64,000 nucleotides of DNA from Polystyrenella longa (lineage in GTDB: Bacteria > Planctomycetota > Planctomycetia > Planctomycetales > Planctomycetaceae), in the NCBI RefSeq assembly GCF_007750395.1, contig NZ_CP036281.1, positions 4,363,001 to 4,427,000 of the forward strand, read 5' to 3'. The translations under genes and the position numbers were made by a program. This document shows, piece after piece, positions 3,723 through 64,000 of the stretch; position 1 is the first letter of the stretch, and each line of letters opens with the position of its first letter. Under the pieces are notes generated by a model. The model was not told where the DNA came from. It searched no databases and saw only the letters and a program-made list of their open reading frames with translations.

Positions 3723-6605
3723 TCAGTCACCCGTTCGGATTAACTCCAACCCATTGATCATCGTTTCGCCTTGTTCTGAAACTAGCTCAAGCAGGAAATC
3801 CTCGCCTACCGTAATTCCATCGAAACTCTTAACGATGCCTCGATTATCGCCTGCTGCCTCGGCGACGATATCAAATGAGTTCAGCACCGGTTCCCCCTGA
3901 ACTGAGATGGTTTGCACGCGTGCGCCGGATTCTCTTATTGGTAGATCGCAGAAGTAGAGACGAACGGTGTAGGTACCCGGTTTGAGTTTTTCCAGTTTGA
4001 ATTCACTCAGCCCAATGGCCGCCGAGCCATCGACCCACGGCCATTTCTCACTCGAATCGATTCGCAAACTGTGTCGGTAAGAATAGTCGACTGTTGCCGG
4101 GGAAGTATTCGCCGTAAGCTTTGGAGAAGGCTCGCCCAGACTTGGAAAGTTCAACCAGAGTGTCCCTTCTCGGGTCATTCGAGCGCCGGGAGCACCAAAG
4201 TTAATCCCTATTCGCTGGATCGATTCGGGTTCGCTTTCACCCCAAACGGCCCACTGCTCGTGCGTTTCCGGCACAGCATAGAGAGCCATGCTGGTAGGTA
4301 ATGGGTAACTGCAGGTACAGCCTTCGTAAAAGTAAGGCACGTTGAGTAACCCGTTTGCCGGGATGATACTGTTGGTACAACCCGACCGGGGACCGCTCAG
4401 GAACATTGTCCCGCTTTCGAGCGTTTTGTCGTAAAAAGCAGGGGTTCCGCTTCGCATGGTGAATAGAAAACCATAGTCGACGCCCCCGTCGCAACCGTAG
4501 TTTTTCGGAAAGTCGCGTTTCTCTTCTTTGCCCGACAGGGGATTGATACGAGTTCCCTGTTCCGGTTTCGCTGGATGCCACGCATCCTTTTGATACGGTG
4601 GCCGATACTGCGTGGGCTCCGATGCCTCTTCCTTATTTACCGTATGTTTCGCCCGGGCTTCCTGAGCCTCGGACTCTTCAAACAACCGCCCGGTATAGAC
4701 ATCGGAAAAAGAGGGTGGGAACAAAGGAAAGTCGACAGTGTAGTCCGACCGGTCCCGTTCGCTTAACCAGGATTTACCGCGCGAGACCATCACCCCTTTC
4801 TCAAAAGACGGTTGCGGAGACCGTTTGAAATTTTTAACGAGATCATTGAACCAGAGCACACCGACAGGGAACCGCACCAGTTCATCCTGGTTGAGTTCCC
4901 AGTCGGTCTGGTAATCCTGACTTCCGGGCAGAGGCCCTACCCGAGAGAATGTCGCTGTGGAGTTCGCTTTACTGGCGAGCGCTTCGTCTCCCCATTCGCT
5001 ATAGAGCGTTTGCATCAGGGTACTTCGAAACGTGTCCTCTTTAATCCCTTCTGCAAAATGCAGTTGCCCGCCATAAGGACGTACGGAGTTGACGAAAGAA
5101 TCTAAATTCAATTCGCCATTGGCACCGAGGACTCTTTCCAGATCCGATTGACTACGAGCATAAACCAGCTCGGCCCAATAGGGAGGAAGTCCTGCTTTCC
5201 CCGTCTCCAGAAGCCAAACCACTCCTCGCGAACCATAGTGACCTGCTGCTTGAAGGTGCTGGCGAAGCTTCGTAGCTTGATTGGTGTCGTTCTCCAGAAC
5301 AATCAACTTCAAGTCCGTCTTTTCCAGAAGCATGTCCAAACTGGCGGCATCCGGACTCCCGACCGATAACGCATATCCAGATGATGTATGCAGCGATTCA
5401 ATAACTCGTCGTGTTTCTGCATCCAGTGGATGTTCGTCGTCACTTTTCACAATCGAAGTCGAATTTGCTTTTGCGATCGCCAATGGAAATTGAACCGGCT
5501 TTCGGTTTTCGGTTCCATACACACACAGTTGCCCACCCTCAGTAACCACAACGGCATAATCGTTTACCGGCACTAGATTCTGAACTGGTCCCGCAATCCC
5601 ATGATCCGGTTTGTCAAAACTAATAACTTCTTCGGCGGCCGTAATCTGGCGATGCAGGTTTCCGTCGCCGGTGCCGAATTGCTGTTTGTCTTCGTGACGC
5701 TGTTGGTTAATCACTTCATCAAAACTGACTGTTCCACGCCGGACAGCCTTCGCCGATTCAGGATCGAGTGACGAAAACCAACCGCCCGGATATCGCGACA
5801 CTTTCGGCAGTGCAAATTCTATCAATTCGCCGGTCTCTTTATTCAAACGAGCCGGGTAGGCGGCGGAGCAGGGGATGACCAGCTCGTCATCATTGATTAA
5901 CAGATACCCTTGTGGGGCCAGGCCACCCATGGCGACTGTTTGGTGAGGATGGTCGCCATACAGATATCCAAGTCGATCATTCTGCCAGATCACTTCACCT
6001 GTCTCTACCGAAAGAGCCGTGGCCACAATTCCTTCAAATGGCCAGACACCCGCGGCAAGGTAGACTGTTCCATCATCGACAACAGCACCACCGCGGACTG
6101 GCCAAACGGAAGTCAGCCGTTCGTTTGCCAATAGCTTTCGGTCACTTAACGCGACCTGTTTCTTCCATTGAAGTTCGCCCGTCTGCAGACTGAGGCAGTA
6201 AAAGTAACCATCGTCCGATCCGAAGAGAACTCGATCACCCCAGAGAACCGGCGCCAGTCGATTGGGGCCGTTCGTGAAGAAGGACCATTTTTCCTGTCCA
6301 GTCTTCAGGTCATATGCTGTGACGGTATCTTCAACAGACGAGGCCAGGACGATCGTGTCCTTCTTGATCACCGGTTCGTATCGACCGTCGAACTGTAGTC
6401 GCGGATTATCAAACGCCGGATTGATCTCGGGCAACTCTCGCGACCACTGCAAATGCAGTTCGCCCTCCAGGCCTTGAACCGATACAGCGGTCCGCCCGGA
6501 GTTGTTTCGCCACGTTGGCCAGTCTTCGGAGAAGACGGAGCCCTGAAAAAGAGAAAGACTCAAAAGAACACAAAACGAAACCGTTACTCGACTCATTCCA
6601 AACAC
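3723..6605 (-). CDS. Giant secreted PQQ-type beta-propeller protein with Rossmann-like and malectin-like domains (960 aa)
   Basis: A Sec signal peptide (residues 1-26) is followed by EDWPTWRNNSGRTAV, the usual opening of planctomycete PQQ/BamB-like propellers. Residues about 30-390 carry blade motifs such as TGQEKWSF, TGELQWKK and TGEVIWQN. Residues about 400-530 are a Rossmann methyltransferase-like domain whose motif I is degenerate (SVGSPDAASL), ending with VRPYGGQL. The second propeller, long in the 1456-aa paralogue at 34023-38393, is reduced here to about 200 residues. A signature Cys743-x19-Cys763-x-Cys765 follows, then a malectin-like carbohydrate-binding domain from about 840 to the end (TYTVRLYFCDLP, GEPVLNSFDIVAEA). 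Likely exported; no enzymatic function can be assigned. It is a monocistronic gene with divergent and convergent neighbours. Confidence 0.85.
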   Translation of the reverse strand: MFGMSRVTVSFCVLLSLSLFQGSVFSEDWPTWRNNSGRTAVSVQGLEGELHLQWSRELPEINPAFDNPRLQFDGRYEPVIKKDTIVLASSVEDTVTAYDLKTGQEKWSFFTNGPNRLAPVLWGDRVLFGSDDGYFYCLSLQTGELQWKKQVALSDRKLLANERLTSVWPVRGGAVVDDGTVYLAAGVWPFEGIVATALSVETGEVIWQNDRLGYLYGDHPHQTVAMGGLAPQGYLLINDDELVIPCSAAYPARLNKETGELIEFALPKVSRYPGGWFSSLDPESAKAVRRGTVSFDEVINQQRHEDKQQFGTGDGNLHRQITAAEEVISFDKPDHGIAGPVQNLVPVNDYAVVVTEGGQLCVYGTENRKPVQFPLAIAKANSTSIVKSDDEHPLDAETRRVIESLHTSSGYALSVGSPDAASLDMLLEKTDLKLIVLENDTNQATKLRQHLQAAGHYGSRGVVWLLETGKAGLPPYWAELVYARSQSDLERVLGANGELNLDSFVNSVRPYGGQLHFAEGIKEDTFRSTLMQTLYSEWGDEALASKANSTATFSRVGPLPGSQDYQTDWELNQDELVRFPVGVLWFNDLVKNFKRSPQPSFEKGVMVSRGKSWLSERDRSDYTVDFPLFPPSFSDVYTGRLFEESEAQEARAKHTVNKEEASEPTQYRPPYQKDAWHPAKPEQGTRINPLSGKEEKRDFPKNYGCDGGVDYGFLFTMRSGTPAFYDKTLESGTMFLSGPRSGCTNSIIPANGLLNVPYFYEGCTCSYPLPTSMALYAVPETHEQWAVWGESEPESIQRIGINFGAPGARMTREGTLWLNFPSLGEPSPKLTANTSPATVDYSYRHSLRIDSSEKWPWVDGSAAIGLSEFKLEKLKPGTYTVRLYFCDLPIRESGARVQTISVQGEPVLNSFDIVAEAAGDNRGIVKSFDGITVGEDFLLELVSEQGETMINGLELIRTGD

Positions 6606-32882: not shown

Positions 32883-34010
<1,128 letters not shown>

Positions 34011-34022
34011 TATGCCCTAATG

Positions 34023-37000
34023 TTATTCTGTTTCGAGTTTAATTTCGATCCCGCTCAGAACGGGTTTTCGGGCACCGGTCTCTTCCAGTTCAACTTTCAA
34101 TCGGGAAGAAATGGGGATGCCGTTGAATTCCTTCACCAGCACATCGCGAGCCCCACCCGTTTCGGCCAGGATATCGAAATCACGTAGCAGGGGTTCGCCT
34201 TGAAGATTCACATTGAATCGACGGTCGCCTACCTTCACATCTTGCTCCGGTTCGGCGAAGAAGAGACGAACAGTGTATGGACGGCTGGGAACGTGACTGA
34301 CTTCGGCAACCTGTTCGAGGGAATCTTCTTCCAGTTCGATAAACAGGCGTGGAATTCCAGATTTGTCACCCTTCTTGTCGCCATCGGCTGCCACAGCCGC
34401 ACGATCGCCCGATCCCTTGATAATGAAACCGATCGCATTGCCCGGTTCCCATCCATCGCGATTGACGATTTCTTCGATCAATGTTTTCAAATCAGGAGTC
34501 CGTTCAGCCTCGCCGTGGCGAGCCGCTTCCCAAGGTTCAATCTCCCACTTCACGGACGCTTCGGTTTTGGGTCGTTTTGTGATGCTTTCCCGTTTCGTGC
34601 TGAAACTTTTAACATCATCAACCGCTTCGCTCCAGACAGTGACTTTGGTTTCCGTGTCGATGGCCTTGGTCGCGGTGAACTGAATATAGGCTGACTTAAT
34701 CTTTGCTCCCTTGGGAAGGGGCAGGGAATTGAATCGAATTCCGGCAGTATGATCCTGCTTGGAAGCTGGGTAAAAAGTCGTATTGGAAACAATCATATCG
34801 CCGTTGGGTAATTCAGCGGCGTCGTCCACCGAACTGTTAGCGGGGAAACCGAACTCCAATTGATCAATCGCGGTTGGTTTCACGAGCAGATCAATCTGAC
34901 TGGCCCCTTTGACACCCGATGAGGCAACCCATTTCAATTCCTCTCCCTGATAGCGGGAAGAGTGATCGAGGAAGTATTCGGCATCTCCTTTAACGGATAC
35001 GGTCAGCGACGGAGAGGGTCCTCCGATTTCGGGATAGTCGAGCCACAAGGTGCCTTCTTCGTCACGACGATCGCCGGGGGCACCAAAGTTGATTCCCACC
35101 GCCCGCACAAGATCACCATCGTAGGCCATGTCGTTGTGGGTCCAGATTTCAAGGTCGGGCATATGAACCATCGCCAGAGAGGTCTGGTTCTGGAATGAGC
35201 AACTACAAGTTCGCGTATAATCGGGGGCATTCAACAGCCCATCTGCGGCGATGAGGTTACTTGTGCAACCTGATTTGAAACCACCGAAATGGCCTGTCCC
35301 GCCATCGTTGGTCATGTCATAAAAGGCGGCTGAGGAAGAGCGGAAAGTCAGCATCGTCTCACAGGCAATCGGATAGTTACACCCCTTGGTTGCGCTGTAG
35401 CTCCAGACATCTTCTTTGCCAGTCAGCGGGTCCGTTCGCATGAGCGGCTTTCCGGTGATCAGTGAATAAAAACGACCTCCTGTAATCAGTTTGTCGCCAT
35501 GTAGAATCGGAGGCGTGCTGTACGAAATCGACTCATTCCAGAGAACGTCTCCCGTATCGGCATCGTATGCGATGATCTGTCGACCATTTTCATCCCGGAC
35601 AGTGTCATTGGAAGGACGAGTCGATTGAATCAGAATACGATATTCATCCGAATAACCGAGCCAGGTGCCGAAAATGTTCTCGGACGTTTTCCAGACGACA
35701 TCGCCAGTTTCAATGTCATAAGCCGTCAGCGAATACGTATCCGGATTCACTTCGCCCCGGCGGGCCAGTTGTTGTTCAATGTTAGGAGGTAATTTATCGA
35801 GTACATAAACGACGTTGCGACCAACGCAAATGGCGTTGTGAATCAAGCTATGTTTAGCAGGTACTTGCCATTTAACCTGGCCGGAATGGCGATCCATCAC
35901 TGTCAGTCCGCGACTGGCCGATTGGTCATAATCGACAAACCGGAATTTACTGCGGCGCTGATCGGCAGTATCAATCGGCAGGTTTTTACGTTGACTGTAC
36001 TCAGCAAAACCGAGTCCACCCAGCAGGTTGTTCCCAGCGATACCGATGTAACCCCAAGACTGTACTGGCTCGGACTTTTCGTCGAATTTCAGTTCAGGAA
36101 GATCGAACATGGCGACATCCTTTCCTGTGACCGCGTCGAGAACACGACACTTGTCCTTCTGGAGGATGTAGACCAGATCTTCTGTAGCGATATAGTTCGT
36201 TCCGCGGGCATTAGCTCCGGGAATATGTACCTGGTTGTATTCAGTACTCAGCGGGGTGTCTTTGTAAGTCTGATCGAAGAAGAGTCCTTCGGCCCCCGTG
36301 TCGACCAACTTGGTTTGCCACAGGACTTGGCCAGTATAAACATCGCGTGCATTAAGAACATCCATTCCCTGAATATAGAGTCTCCCCCCAATGATCTGCT
36401 CCGGCGGACCGTGACCATGTCGAGGAAGGACGTCCATATTGGAACTGCCACCGAACCACAGGAGGCCCATGGGCAATTTAACACGAGAATCGTCTGACTT
36501 GACGGTGTTTTCGATGTCGCCGTATTGATGAGTCCAGTTTCCAGCACCAGGAAGCTGCCCTGCACGGGTGACGGTGAGTGATGAACCGACGGAAGTAAAT
36601 TCACCCTTCGCCAGAGAGCCTTGCAGTTGCTGGCCTTTAAGACTGCTGAGCAGCTTCGATGAATTGTCGGGATTAATAAACCAGAGTTTGCCCCCATAAG
36701 GACGAAGGCCTTCGAAGAGGTTTTCCGCCAGTTCCGTTTCTCCCGGAATCGTAGCTTCATATCCAATTGCGGCAGGGTCGTTAATGATCGTCATACTGGA
36801 GAGGTAGACGGGCAGGGTATAATCCTGATTTAACTCTCCATCCAGAAACGCAACGGGATGAGAACCTGGCACTGCGGAGGGATCAACGATATCGAATTTC
36901 TTCCGCCACTCGGTTACTTTTTCGGTGTCCGAATCGAGGACGATCCATTTCAATTTTGATTCAGCAACGACCGCTTTTAGTAATTCACCATCACCAATCC

Positions 37001-38393
37001 CGACGAAGTATCCATAAGCTGCCTCAGGAGTGAGTTGGCGTACAATTTCTTGAGCTTCCGCTTTCGCTTCCTCGGTGAGTGGGAGTTGTTCCTGTTTAGT
37101 AGCAATTTCGGTTGCCGTCTCAGATTCATTCCCGGTGAAAACGAAAACCTGACCTTCATCGGTCGTCACAATCAATCGATCATCAGCGGCGACGAGGCGA
37201 GCGATGGTTCCGTCTAATGATAATGTCTGAATTTTTTCCGGTGCGGTTGCTTCGTCCTCAGAGAGTTGCCAAACAGTGATTTCTTTTTCACCCGCGGCGT
37301 AAAGTCGTGAGCCAGCCTGGATCATATCTTTAGTAGCATCGGCTTCGACCTTCCAGACCGTTTCTTTCGGATCGTCATAGTTATGACATTCCAGCGAATC
37401 CCCGGAATAGATGAAGGCTTTGTCACTCAAAACAGGTTGATGACCGCGTAACTCGTCACGACGACGGCCTGACCCCAGGATAAACCAGCTATATTCGTCG
37501 TCTCTCTCGTGAGCCCAGAGGGCAGAGTTGTTTGCGAAGACGTACGAACCGCCGGACTTACCGTAGTCGGCCAGATGAAAGAACTGCAACTTCCCAGTAT
37601 CCCGTTCGAGGCTCGCAGGAATTGACCGGCCTCCGGGAATAAAGAGTTGTTTATCATTTACAGCAAGATGTCCCTGCGGTGCGATACCGGCAAAGGCGGG
37701 GTAGTGGTGCGGTTGATCGATGTAGAGGGCGCTTGTGTTGTCGTTGACCCAAACGGTATCTCCCGTTTCGGCATCGAGCGCGTAAATGAACGTCCCCATA
37801 AAAGGCCAGATACTGGCGGCGAAATAGACCGTACCGTCATCAACCACTGCCGCTCCACGTGCAGGCCAAGTTGAAATGAGGCGTTCGTTCCCCAGAATTT
37901 TCCGATCCGACGGTCCGCCCCGGAACTTCCAGATTTCGTTTCCGGTGTTTACATCCAGGCAGTACAGGTATCCGTCGTCGCTGACGACATACGCTTTGCC
38001 ATCGGCACAGGCAGCTGGATAGCGAATCGGGCCGTCGGCATAAAATCGCCAGCGTTCTTCGCTCGTTTTGACATCAAGGGCGAGAACTTTGTCGGTGTCA
38101 TTAAATGACAGCAGCATCAAGCCGTTGACCACGACTGGTTCAAACTGACTGTCGTATTTCATTAAGTCATGGTTGAGAGGATCATCCCAGACAGGTTTCC
38201 GTTTGCCGAAGTTGACTGACCAGCCGGGGTACAGTTTGTCGGGCAAAGCATGCGGCGAGACTCCTGTGCGGCCTGCATCGTATCGCCACATAGGCCAGTC
38301 CTCAGCTTGGACCAAGCTGGACGAGATGCAGAAGGAGGAAAGAGCAATCAGACTGAACAGAGCCAGACGAAGGGTCAGGTTGAATTTTATCAT
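34023..38393 (-). CDS. Giant secreted PQQ-type propeller protein with Rossmann-like, DNRLRE-like and malectin-like domains (1456 aa)
   Basis: Signal peptide (about 1-30), then EDWPMWRYDAGRTGVS, the same opening as the 960-aa protein. A first propeller runs to about 430 (TSEERWRF, TGNEIWKF, TGDTVWVN). A Rossmann methyltransferase-like domain follows with GIGDGELL in the motif I place, ending LRPYGGKL. A second full propeller covers about 610-1030 (YTGQVLWQT, SGQVKWQV, TGDVVWKT, TGDVLWNE). The signature is Cys1043-x19-Cys1063-x-Cys1065. A malectin-like domain starts near 1130, is interrupted at about 1174-1371 by a DNRLRE-like domain (GIRFNSLPLPKGAKIKSAYI), and resumes with YTVRLFFAEPE. Probably acts on or binds cell-surface polysaccharide; no catalysis can be assigned. 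Confidence 0.87.
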   Translation of the reverse strand: MIKFNLTLRLALFSLIALSSFCISSSLVQAEDWPMWRYDAGRTGVSPHALPDKLYPGWSVNFGKRKPVWDDPLNHDLMKYDSQFEPVVVNGLMLLSFNDTDKVLALDVKTSEERWRFYADGPIRYPAACADGKAYVVSDDGYLYCLDVNTGNEIWKFRGGPSDRKILGNERLISTWPARGAAVVDDGTVYFAASIWPFMGTFIYALDAETGDTVWVNDNTSALYIDQPHHYPAFAGIAPQGHLAVNDKQLFIPGGRSIPASLERDTGKLQFFHLADYGKSGGSYVFANNSALWAHERDDEYSWFILGSGRRRDELRGHQPVLSDKAFIYSGDSLECHNYDDPKETVWKVEADATKDMIQAGSRLYAAGEKEITVWQLSEDEATAPEKIQTLSLDGTIARLVAADDRLIVTTDEGQVFVFTGNESETATEIATKQEQLPLTEEAKAEAQEIVRQLTPEAAYGYFVGIGDGELLKAVVAESKLKWIVLDSDTEKVTEWRKKFDIVDPSAVPGSHPVAFLDGELNQDYTLPVYLSSMTIINDPAAIGYEATIPGETELAENLFEGLRPYGGKLWFINPDNSSKLLSSLKGQQLQGSLAKGEFTSVGSSLTVTRAGQLPGAGNWTHQYGDIENTVKSDDSRVKLPMGLLWFGGSSNMDVLPRHGHGPPEQIIGGRLYIQGMDVLNARDVYTGQVLWQTKLVDTGAEGLFFDQTYKDTPLSTEYNQVHIPGANARGTNYIATEDLVYILQKDKCRVLDAVTGKDVAMFDLPELKFDEKSEPVQSWGYIGIAGNNLLGGLGFAEYSQRKNLPIDTADQRRSKFRFVDYDQSASRGLTVMDRHSGQVKWQVPAKHSLIHNAICVGRNVVYVLDKLPPNIEQQLARRGEVNPDTYSLTAYDIETGDVVWKTSENIFGTWLGYSDEYRILIQSTRPSNDTVRDENGRQIIAYDADTGDVLWNESISYSTPPILHGDKLITGGRFYSLITGKPLMRTDPLTGKEDVWSYSATKGCNYPIACETMLTFRSSSAAFYDMTNDGGTGHFGGFKSGCTSNLIAADGLLNAPDYTRTCSCSFQNQTSLAMVHMPDLEIWTHNDMAYDGDLVRAVGINFGAPGDRRDEEGTLWLDYPEIGGPSPSLTVSVKGDAEYFLDHSSRYQGEELKWVASSGVKGASQIDLLVKPTAIDQLEFGFPANSSVDDAAELPNGDMIVSNTTFYPASKQDHTAGIRFNSLPLPKGAKIKSAYIQFTATKAIDTETKVTVWSEAVDDVKSFSTKRESITKRPKTEASVKWEIEPWEAARHGEAERTPDLKTLIEEIVNRDGWEPGNAIGFIIKGSGDRAAVAADGDKKGDKSGIPRLFIELEEDSLEQVAEVSHVPSRPYTVRLFFAEPEQDVKVGDRRFNVNLQGEPLLRDFDILAETGGARDVLVKEFNGIPISSRLKVELEETGARKPVLSGIEIKLETE

Positions 38394-62156: not shown

Positions 62157-64000
62157 TTACTTTTCCAGAGCGGTAACTTGTTTCACTGGATAGAAGGCCA
62201 TCGACGTCTGCAAGGCATGTTCGCAGAAACAACCGGAACCCGTTTCCGGAGCGAGCAGCACACCCCCCGACGGAATCAGACTCAACCAGCAACCACTGCG
62301 AACCCCCATGAACTGGGTCCGTTCCTGGGTTTCCAGATCGTACATCCCGTGGTACTCAAAACGGCGGAACAGCATGTTGTTGGAACCGGTCATCACACCA
62401 CATCCATGCCAATCAAAATCGTCCGTCTCCAACACGTTGCCCGTGCGTAGTTCCACCGTCTGCTTGTTGTGATAGAGTTTGTCTCCAATCAGCACCGGGT
62501 GGGCAAGATGACCACTGTGATGTTTTTTCTTAGCTTCTTCAGAGTGTTGCCACAACTCGTATCCATTTCGAGCATCGAAGGCATAGGTGTGGAAACTCTT
62601 GTTTTGATCAGTTCCCGTTACCAGCAATGTATCGTTCGTATGACTGAGATAAGTCATGAATTCACATTTACTGAAGTCGTAACTTTTCTCCCATTTGATT
62701 TCACCCGTCTCTAAATCGAGTGCGACGAGGTACTGGTGTTGTTGAACCTGATCCAGTAACCGACTTACTTGTTCATCAATTGCAGCCGGATTACGGCTTT
62801 CGACAAAATAGACGTTCTCTCCATCGATCGTGATCGTGGAGTTCATGATTTTACCATCCTCATAAGTCCACCGTTTCTCTCCGGTCGTGGCATCGCGAGC
62901 AGTGAAGTTATCGCTGGTGACGCGAGAGACCGAGGCGGCTTCGTAGTCTTCAAACCACTCGCCATTATCACCCATGTATTGTGCACCGCGGCTAGTGGCC
63001 GTACCGAGTAAGAGATTATTCACCACACCCAGGTAACCCCAGTTGTAGGCAACATCCCCTTCCTTCCGCTCCACCTGATACGTCGCAGTCAATTCGCCCG
63101 TTTGTCCGTCGAACATGAAACAGTCGGAATCAACGGCGAGATACAGGTAATCATCCGTCGCCACCATGTTTGAACCATCACGGGGCATGTTTGCACGCCG
63201 CATCGTAGGAATCTGTTTCGTCCAGAGAATCGTCCCGTTATAAGCATCCATTCCAAACAGAGTCCGGTCGCCTTGAACGTACATTCTGCCGTTTGCAGAA
63301 ACGGGGGCGGGGTTTCGTCCCCCCCGGTCAGGCATTGGACGCGATCCCGGACGTCCCCACCACAGAACAGACATCTTACCACCAATTACACCATCTTTAC
63401 TGCAGGACGAATTATCCGGGTGCCCATACATGTGGGTCCATTCGCCACTCTCCGGCAATTTGCCTCGGGTATAGGAAGCGAGCAAAACGTCCGATTCCGC
63501 CGTTGCAACCTGTCCCTGCTCAGCAGGAAGATTTCCCAACCATTCATTGAACTTGGTTAGTTGCGAGGCACGCTCCTCGTCTGACTCTCCCGATTGCAAC
63601 TGTCCCAGACAGACTGCACCTCCGGCAGGTCGCAAGATTCGGAAGATTTCACTCGACCATTCCGGTAAAGAGACTGATTCAAACGCTGATTCCGAGATCA
63701 CCAGATTGGCAAACCAAGGTCCGAATGGAAGTTGTTCCTGTTCCTGATGATGAACCGTTACGCGTGCACCGTAGACGCCAGCGTCATCGAACATACGTCG
63801 AATCGCCTGGACCTTGTCCATGTCTTGTTCGACGACAACGACATGTAAATCAGATTGATTGATCAACTCAGCGATTAACCGACCCGTTCCGGCGCCGAGT
63901 ACAACAGCATATCCCTTATGTGTCTGGATCGTCTTCAGCATCTCCGCAGCTGCGTTTTGATAGACAGGGGTAAGTTCATCCGTTTCGAACAAATCGACCT
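62157..64000 (-). CDS. Third giant PQQ-type propeller protein, 5' part beyond the window
   Basis: The frame stays open to the right edge, and the two paralogues carry ~370-400 residues ahead of this point, so this is a partial gene; the TTG at 63992 is not the true start. About 611 residues are visible. They begin with a methyltransferase-like Rossmann domain with an intact motif I (VVLGAGTGRLIAEL), acidic strand-2 end (VVVVEQDMDKV) and closing LRPAGGAV. Then GEWTHMYGHPDNSSC, a PQQ propeller (YNGTILWTKQ, TGELTATY, TGEKRWTY, TGEIKWEK), and the signature C-x19-C-x-C (GC...GCFCEH) shortly before the C-terminus. There is no malectin-like domain. Confidence 0.85.
   Translation of the reverse strand, partial: VDLFETDELTPVYQNAAAEMLKTIQTHKGYAVVLGAGTGRLIAELINQSDLHVVVVEQDMDKVQAIRRMFDDAGVYGARVTVHHQEQEQLPFGPWFANLVISESAFESVSLPEWSSEIFRILRPAGGAVCLGQLQSGESDEERASQLTKFNEWLGNLPAEQGQVATAESDVLLASYTRGKLPESGEWTHMYGHPDNSSCSKDGVIGGKMSVLWWGRPGSRPMPDRGGRNPAPVSANGRMYVQGDRTLFGMDAYNGTILWTKQIPTMRRANMPRDGSNMVATDDYLYLAVDSDCFMFDGQTGELTATYQVERKEGDVAYNWGYLGVVNNLLLGTATSRGAQYMGDNGEWFEDYEAASVSRVTSDNFTARDATTGEKRWTYEDGKIMNSTITIDGENVYFVESRNPAAIDEQVSRLLDQVQQHQYLVALDLETGEIKWEKSYDFSKCEFMTYLSHTNDTLLVTGTDQNKSFHTYAFDARNGYELWQHSEEAKKKHHSGHLAHPVLIGDKLYHNKQTVELRTGNVLETDDFDWHGCGVMTGSNNMLFRRFEYHGMYDLETQERTQFMGVRSGCWLSLIPSGGVLLAPETGSGCFCEHALQTSMAFYPVKQVTALEK

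Follow-up and report, generated by a model that had tools for sequence, protein, structure and literature searches.

The focal gene and its paralogs

The stretch of DNA analysed here (the window) covers 64,000 nucleotides of the Polystyrenella longa genome, which consists of a single 6.1 Mb contig labelled G000. The focal open reading frame, 62157-64000, is still open at the window end, and the gene continues for 493 bp beyond it. The three reading frames grouped as a family by the first-pass annotation were all found in place on the minus strand; however, a fourth paralog (P0002) lies about 0.25 Mb from the focal gene, so that the family has four members in this genome. The features are as follows:

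62157-64493 (G000 4425157-4427493), minus strand: full gene of the focal protein P0001, 778 aa
62157-64000, minus strand: part of P0001 within the window, methyltransferase fold and PQQ-like propeller; the export signal and an fn3-like segment lie past the window
63456-63968, minus strand: class I methyltransferase-fold domain of P0001, residues 176-346 (Pfam, AlphaFold, Foldseek and the outside-only profile)
63882-63896, minus strand: motif I of P0001, GAGTG, residues 200-204
62184-63455, minus strand: C-terminal PQQ-like propeller of P0001, residues 347-770 (PQQ_2, E 4e-18; structure model and Foldseek)
62223-62402, minus strand: cysteine quartet of P0001, C698, C735, C755 and C757 (HGCG ... 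RSGCW ... GCFC), present in 63/63 covering rows
34023-38393, minus strand: P0004, 1456 aa, with signal peptide, propeller 1, methyltransferase fold, propeller 2 and malectin-like C-terminus
36552-37073, minus strand: methyltransferase-fold block of P0004, residues 441-614; GIGDG retained, remainder divergent (E 2e-9 to the outside-only profile)
3723-6605, minus strand: P0003, 960 aa, with signal peptide, propeller 1, degenerate methyltransferase fold, propeller-2 remnant with the cysteine quartet, and malectin-like C-terminus
4935-5429, minus strand: degenerate methyltransferase-fold block of P0003, residues 393-557; GSPDA replaces GxGxG (E 2e-17 to the outside-only profile)
G000 4177161-4181102: P0002, 1313 aa, fully fused, with an intact SAM motif

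The first 165 residues of P0001 comprise an N-region of positive charge, a hydrophobic segment for export (IFTLLTAMLLLAGMAVLASG) and a stretch weakly similar to the fn3/purple-acid-phosphatase N-terminal domain (PF16656, E 0.011). Reading the missing N-terminus, a check proposed in the first-pass annotation, thus revealed an export signal, and the focal protein is predicted to be exported like the other members, including P0003 and P0004, each of which starts with the signal peptide ascribed to it.

The same annotation had placed the middle domain between two propellers. This arrangement holds for P0004 and P0002, but P0003 retains only a remnant of about 200 aa of its second propeller, and the N-terminal propeller is missing from the P0001 chain. 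A separate exported propeller of 467 aa (P0005) is encoded 78 bp upstream of P0001 on the same strand, where an FtsX-type permease, a LolD-type ATPase, P0005 and P0001 form a run at G000 4425157-4431126. A local frameshift or an artefactual split of the focal gene was rejected because the split architecture is shared by a whole supported clade that lacks the N-terminal propeller and spans Planctomycetota, Verrucomicrobiota, Poribacteria and Hydrogenedentota; most loci of this clade in which upstream sequence is covered have a separate upstream propeller gene.

Some further features of these loci can be observed. In the fused form as in the split one, propeller 1 is broken by a charged insertion that is probably a coiled coil (P0002 residues ~350-395, at L007; P0005 residues ~335-390, at L006). 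Just past the window end, the gene next upstream of the FtsX-type permease in the focal run (L006:11361-11915, minus strand) encodes a lipoprotein-like protein of 184 aa that contains about 21 cysteines and is possibly a metal- or thiol-binding partner. A gene for a GFO/IDH/MocA-like oxidoreductase (window 32883-34010, minus strand) begins 12 bp past the stop of P0004 on the same strand, and the two likely form a two-gene operon.

A methyltransferase fold in exported proteins

By profiles and a structure model, the middle block is a genuine class I methyltransferase fold, as the first-pass annotation had proposed from its Rossmann-like pattern. P0001 exceeds the Pfam gathering cut-offs of Methyltransf_25 (33.9 vs 27) and Methyltransf_11 (27.8 vs 21.2), and P0002 likewise lies above the Pfam methyltransferase cut-offs; no Pfam methyltransferase match was obtained for P0003 or P0004. 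An AlphaFold model of window 62157-63998, built from an alignment of 68 rows (pLDDT 90.1, pTM 0.92), shows an alpha/beta domain at residues 10-178 and, after it, a propeller. In Foldseek searches against the PDB, the first domain matched 3DLC, a putative SAM-dependent methyltransferase (E 1.2e-9, TM-score 0.63 by target length), and the propeller matched tetrathionate hydrolase and BamB; the family profile also led to 3DLC (E 5e-14). Neither of the outcomes named beforehand as refuting the assignment, additional propeller blades or the absence of a Rossmann match, arose.

The alignment of all three window proteins through this common block was borne out by a profile built solely from sequences outside the source genome, which, containing no window protein, avoids circularity. 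It scored P0002 at 192 bits, the focal protein at 154 bits, 3723-6605 at 59 bits and 34023-38393 at 33 bits. The family shares with class I SAM methyltransferases (Methyltransf_25, PF13649; Methyltransf_11, PF08241; nearest structure 3DLC, MMP1179) the fold, the GxGxG loop, the acid at the end of beta-2 and the LPY/F and PGG motifs; unlike them, it is exported together with propellers, has no cytoplasmic SAM supply and includes paralogs with a broken motif I. The focal copy carries the full SAM-type motif ascribed to it. The parallel claim that the two other copies have lost theirs is correct for 3723-6605, but 34023-38393 retains a literal GxGxG (VGIGDGEL) and the beta-2-end acid.

The search for the combined architecture in Planctomycetes suggested by the first-pass annotation was extended to a scan of species genomes, which gave 251 loci, 80 of them retained, in Planctomycetota, Verrucomicrobiota, Armatimonadota, Hydrogenedentota and Poribacteria. 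The family occurs in 62 of 394 sampled Planctomycetota genomes (about one sixth), with up to 12 copies per genome. Its carriers include the planctomycetes strain TBK1r and Stieleria sedimenti. A search for spread on plasmids returned generic propeller matches only.

Motif I and the beta-2 acid are retained together in 100 of 109 aligned family domains from several phyla, including P0001, P0002 and, in its letters, P0004. P0003 is one of the nine exceptions, and five others belong to the six-member P0004 clade; this clade is degenerate, but P0004 itself reads GIGDG. The most conserved columns within the domain include the PGG motif, the beta-2 acid and the flanks of motif I, LPY is also conserved, and further near-invariant positions are R232, R244, YFANLIVS and P289-G291-G292. 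The suggestion that the domain is a fossil is thus unlikely for the family as a whole, because both features are kept in so many sequences from several phyla, but it fits 3723-6605 and the P0004 clade. Purifying selection acts on every domain among close orthologs, and the methyltransferase domain changes fastest, with the highest dN among the folded domains (relative dN alone was used, dS being near saturation); for P0001 the identity is 60% in the methyltransferase domain vs 87% in the propeller. Such fast divergence calls for caution about catalysis, and the domain may be a tolerant scaffold.

A signal-like N-terminus was detected in 73 of the 74 complete family members by a simple signal-peptide heuristic, which is no substitute for SignalP and which also scored 2/15 LolD-type ATPases and 1/4 ThiF-like proteins as positive. 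In the sole negative (at L023), a hydrophobic segment is visible. The signals are Sec-like, not Tat-like, as judged by eye, and the methyltransferase domain directly follows the signal in L086 and L033:2150-6070. By this heuristic, access to cytoplasmic SAM is not found among the complete members as a group. No supply of SAM beyond the cytoplasm is known, and a bound ligand would not cross the membrane with a protein exported by Sec. The paradox pointed out in the first-pass annotation, a methyltransferase fold in exported proteins, stands, with both the fold and the export signals recovered.

The second propeller and the conserved gene cluster

The cysteine quartet of the second propeller (C533, C570, C590 and C592 in the numbering of the window fragment) is accompanied by an invariant R546 and a near-invariant R567 in the same numbering. 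Its conservation exceeds that of the SAM motif, and it persists in P0003 despite the loss of most of propeller 2. Both a metal site and two disulfides are possible. The propeller has its fold, repeat motif and export in common with PQQ-like 8-bladed propellers (PQQ_2/BamB, PF13360; tetrathionate hydrolase, 7CQY/6L8A; PQQ alcohol dehydrogenases), but all named cut-offs are missed and the invariant quartet sets it apart. The best window protein reached 53 bits against the BamB equivalog cut-off of 285.2 (TIGR03300), and at most 45.5 bits were obtained against the subfamily cut-off of 480 for PQQ-dependent alcohol dehydrogenase (TIGR03075). Tetrathionate hydrolase function was rejected: the catalytic Asp D325, mutated in 7CQY, is not conserved, and the N/D column of 7CQY/6L8A aligns to a Lys consensus, in an alignment that is distant.

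Around the family, a recurring gene order was found across phyla: protein A, permease X, ATPase D, a separate propeller where the N-terminal half is split off, the methyltransferase-propeller protein, a ModA-like protein (B), a ModB-like protein (P), an ATPase (C), ThiS and ThiF. The fullest clusters (L068, L075, L080 and L128) belong to different phyla. Many loci carry an incomplete cluster, with A present in 16 of the 39 that have long flanks; in the source genome, A-X-D-ThiS is located at G000 6056336-6060318, apart from the X-D-P0005-P0001 run of the focal gene. The exported protein A belongs to no Pfam family; an AxA-like signal end is directly followed by Cys, its CxC is invariant (24/24), and a tandem thioredoxin-like fold is predicted (pLDDT 80). 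Permease X is of the FtsX/LolE/MacB type and has a CxC in its extracytoplasmic part that is invariant in 11/11 sequences. X and D thus share an FtsX-type permease and a LolD-type ATPase with LolCDE and MacB type ABC systems, but differ from them in this CxC, in their other partner proteins and in missing the LolC/LolE cut-offs (46 bits for X of L014 and 16 bits for the permease beside the focal gene, against a LolCE equivalog cut-off of 362). Partner B scores as ModA-like, with 106.9 bits at L050 against the TIGR01256 cut-off of 62.5.

The strongest evidence for a common function is the co-occurrence of the family with protein A. Among 59 relatives, A was found in 16 genomes, all within the 18 that carry the family. 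Among the 394 Planctomycetota genomes, 57 have both, 5 the family only, 5 A only and 327 neither, such that 384 of 394 agree (Fisher 1e-56, with shared ancestry not fully corrected); when collapsed to genera, the corresponding counts are 39, 5, 3 and 226.

ThiS/MoaD-like sulfur carriers (of five read, three terminate in GG) and ThiF-like enzymes share clusters with ModABC-like genes (for example L126:14040-14318, plus strand, and L068:908-1953, plus strand), and no recognised Mo/W enzyme adjoins these ThiS/ThiF-ModABC-like clusters. Indirect probes of a Mo/W link were uninformative or negative. A link to tungsten aldehyde oxidoreductase (AOR), suggested by the ModABC and ThiS/ThiF neighbours, was rejected, as AOR does not correlate with the family and is absent from the source genome. 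Moco biosynthesis does not discriminate, MoaC being present in 56 of the 59 genomes; MoaA and MoaE are nevertheless present in G032, the only family-bearing genome with no MoaC match.

Possible roles of the exported domain

The reading preferred here, with a probability of roughly 0.4, is that these proteins belong to an envelope complex in which an adenosyl-type ligand is bound extracytoplasmically by the methyltransferase fold, and in which the cysteine-bearing propeller and the CxC partners carry out thiol or metal chemistry. The Sec-exported proteins, with the methyltransferase fold joined to PQQ-like propellers in one chain or with propeller 1 supplied by the upstream gene, would form the large subunit of a conserved system with X, D and the membrane-anchored protein A, to which complete clusters would add the ModABC-like and ThiS/ThiF genes. 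Outside the cytoplasmic membrane, the fold may bind an adenosyl ligand or another of nucleoside type, possibly with catalysis, and the four invariant cysteines of the second propeller may provide a metal or thiol site. The CxC proteins would hand thiol or metal equivalents to this propeller, with the FtsX-LolD ATPase driving transfer, and copies with a broken motif I would keep the propeller and cysteine part and act as non-binding paralogs. Of the three options raised by the first-pass annotation (a fossil, a binding module for an adenosyl-type ligand, or work inside the cell), the binding module is the best. The broader proposition, that an envelope machine of Planctomycetota and several other phyla has exported methyltransferase folds that work extracytoplasmically with an adenosyl-type cofactor, alongside a four-cysteine propeller and the CxC thioredoxin-fold and CxC FtsX partners, seems rather unlikely when taken in full.

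It is possible, if somewhat unlikely, that the fold was captured anciently as a spacer or docking domain that binds no small molecule, its motif I loop packing on the propeller. SAM is not expected in the periplasm, the highest dN of the folded domains falls in this one, and P0003 and a paralog clade combine a broken motif I with an intact cysteine quartet, all of which would suit such a module. The retention of the glycines and the beta-2 acid across phyla, along with LPY and PGG, nevertheless exceeds what packing by itself would require. The domain could also be an active extracytoplasmic enzyme that uses exported, scavenged or lysis-released SAM to methylate an envelope or extracellular substrate docked by the propellers. 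P0001, P0002 and most relatives do carry the complete SAM-type signature, and the closest solved structures of the domain are SAM methyltransferases, but a periplasmic supply of SAM is not known, no SAM transporter was recognised among the cluster genes, and no precedent of a bacterial periplasmic SAM methyltransferase was found in the open-access literature; this reading is decidedly unlikely.

Handling of a nucleotide-metal cofactor was also considered, with the domain binding the nucleotide part of a pterin-type Mo/W cofactor or of another metal complex delivered by the ModABC-like, ThiS/ThiF and CxC partners. The ModA/ModB-like and ThiS/ThiF genes of the clusters, the cysteine quartet and the CxC proteins are in its favour; it is nevertheless improbable, given that Moco biosynthesis is near-universal in these genomes and hence uninformative, that tungsten AOR does not track the family, and that the signals look Sec-like rather than Tat-like. 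That some members, the focal protein included, work in the cytoplasm with ordinary SAM is scarcely credible: the intact motif alone is in favour of it, and the export signal in the full focal gene, like those of nearly all complete members, contradicts this suggestion of the first-pass annotation.

A secreted methyltransferase of Plasmodiophora brassicae, mentioned in passages of PMC8298192 and PMC6604361, is an exported SAM-type methyltransferase. It resembles the present family in this respect and differs from it in having no propeller and an unrelated setting. It reportedly works within host cells, which do contain SAM. No description of the present architecture or of its gene cluster was found in the open-access literature, in a search limited to open-licence papers, and the envelope gene set is apparently undescribed so far. 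Its components come from known superfamilies in a combination that matches no named one, the named-family cut-offs for the propeller and the permease lying out of reach.

If SAM or a related compound is indeed bound by the domain beyond the cytoplasm, either such cofactors are delivered to the envelope along an unknown route or a fold that classically serves cofactors has been re-used for another ligand, and either outcome changes how methyltransferase domains in exported proteins are read. Independent of the ligand, a system is defined by the shared cluster together with the near-perfect co-occurrence with the CxC thioredoxin-fold protein. A second exported architecture can be observed in the L033 protein (minus strand), in which the signal peptide is followed by the methyltransferase fold, with its motif intact, then by a propeller and a LamG-like domain.
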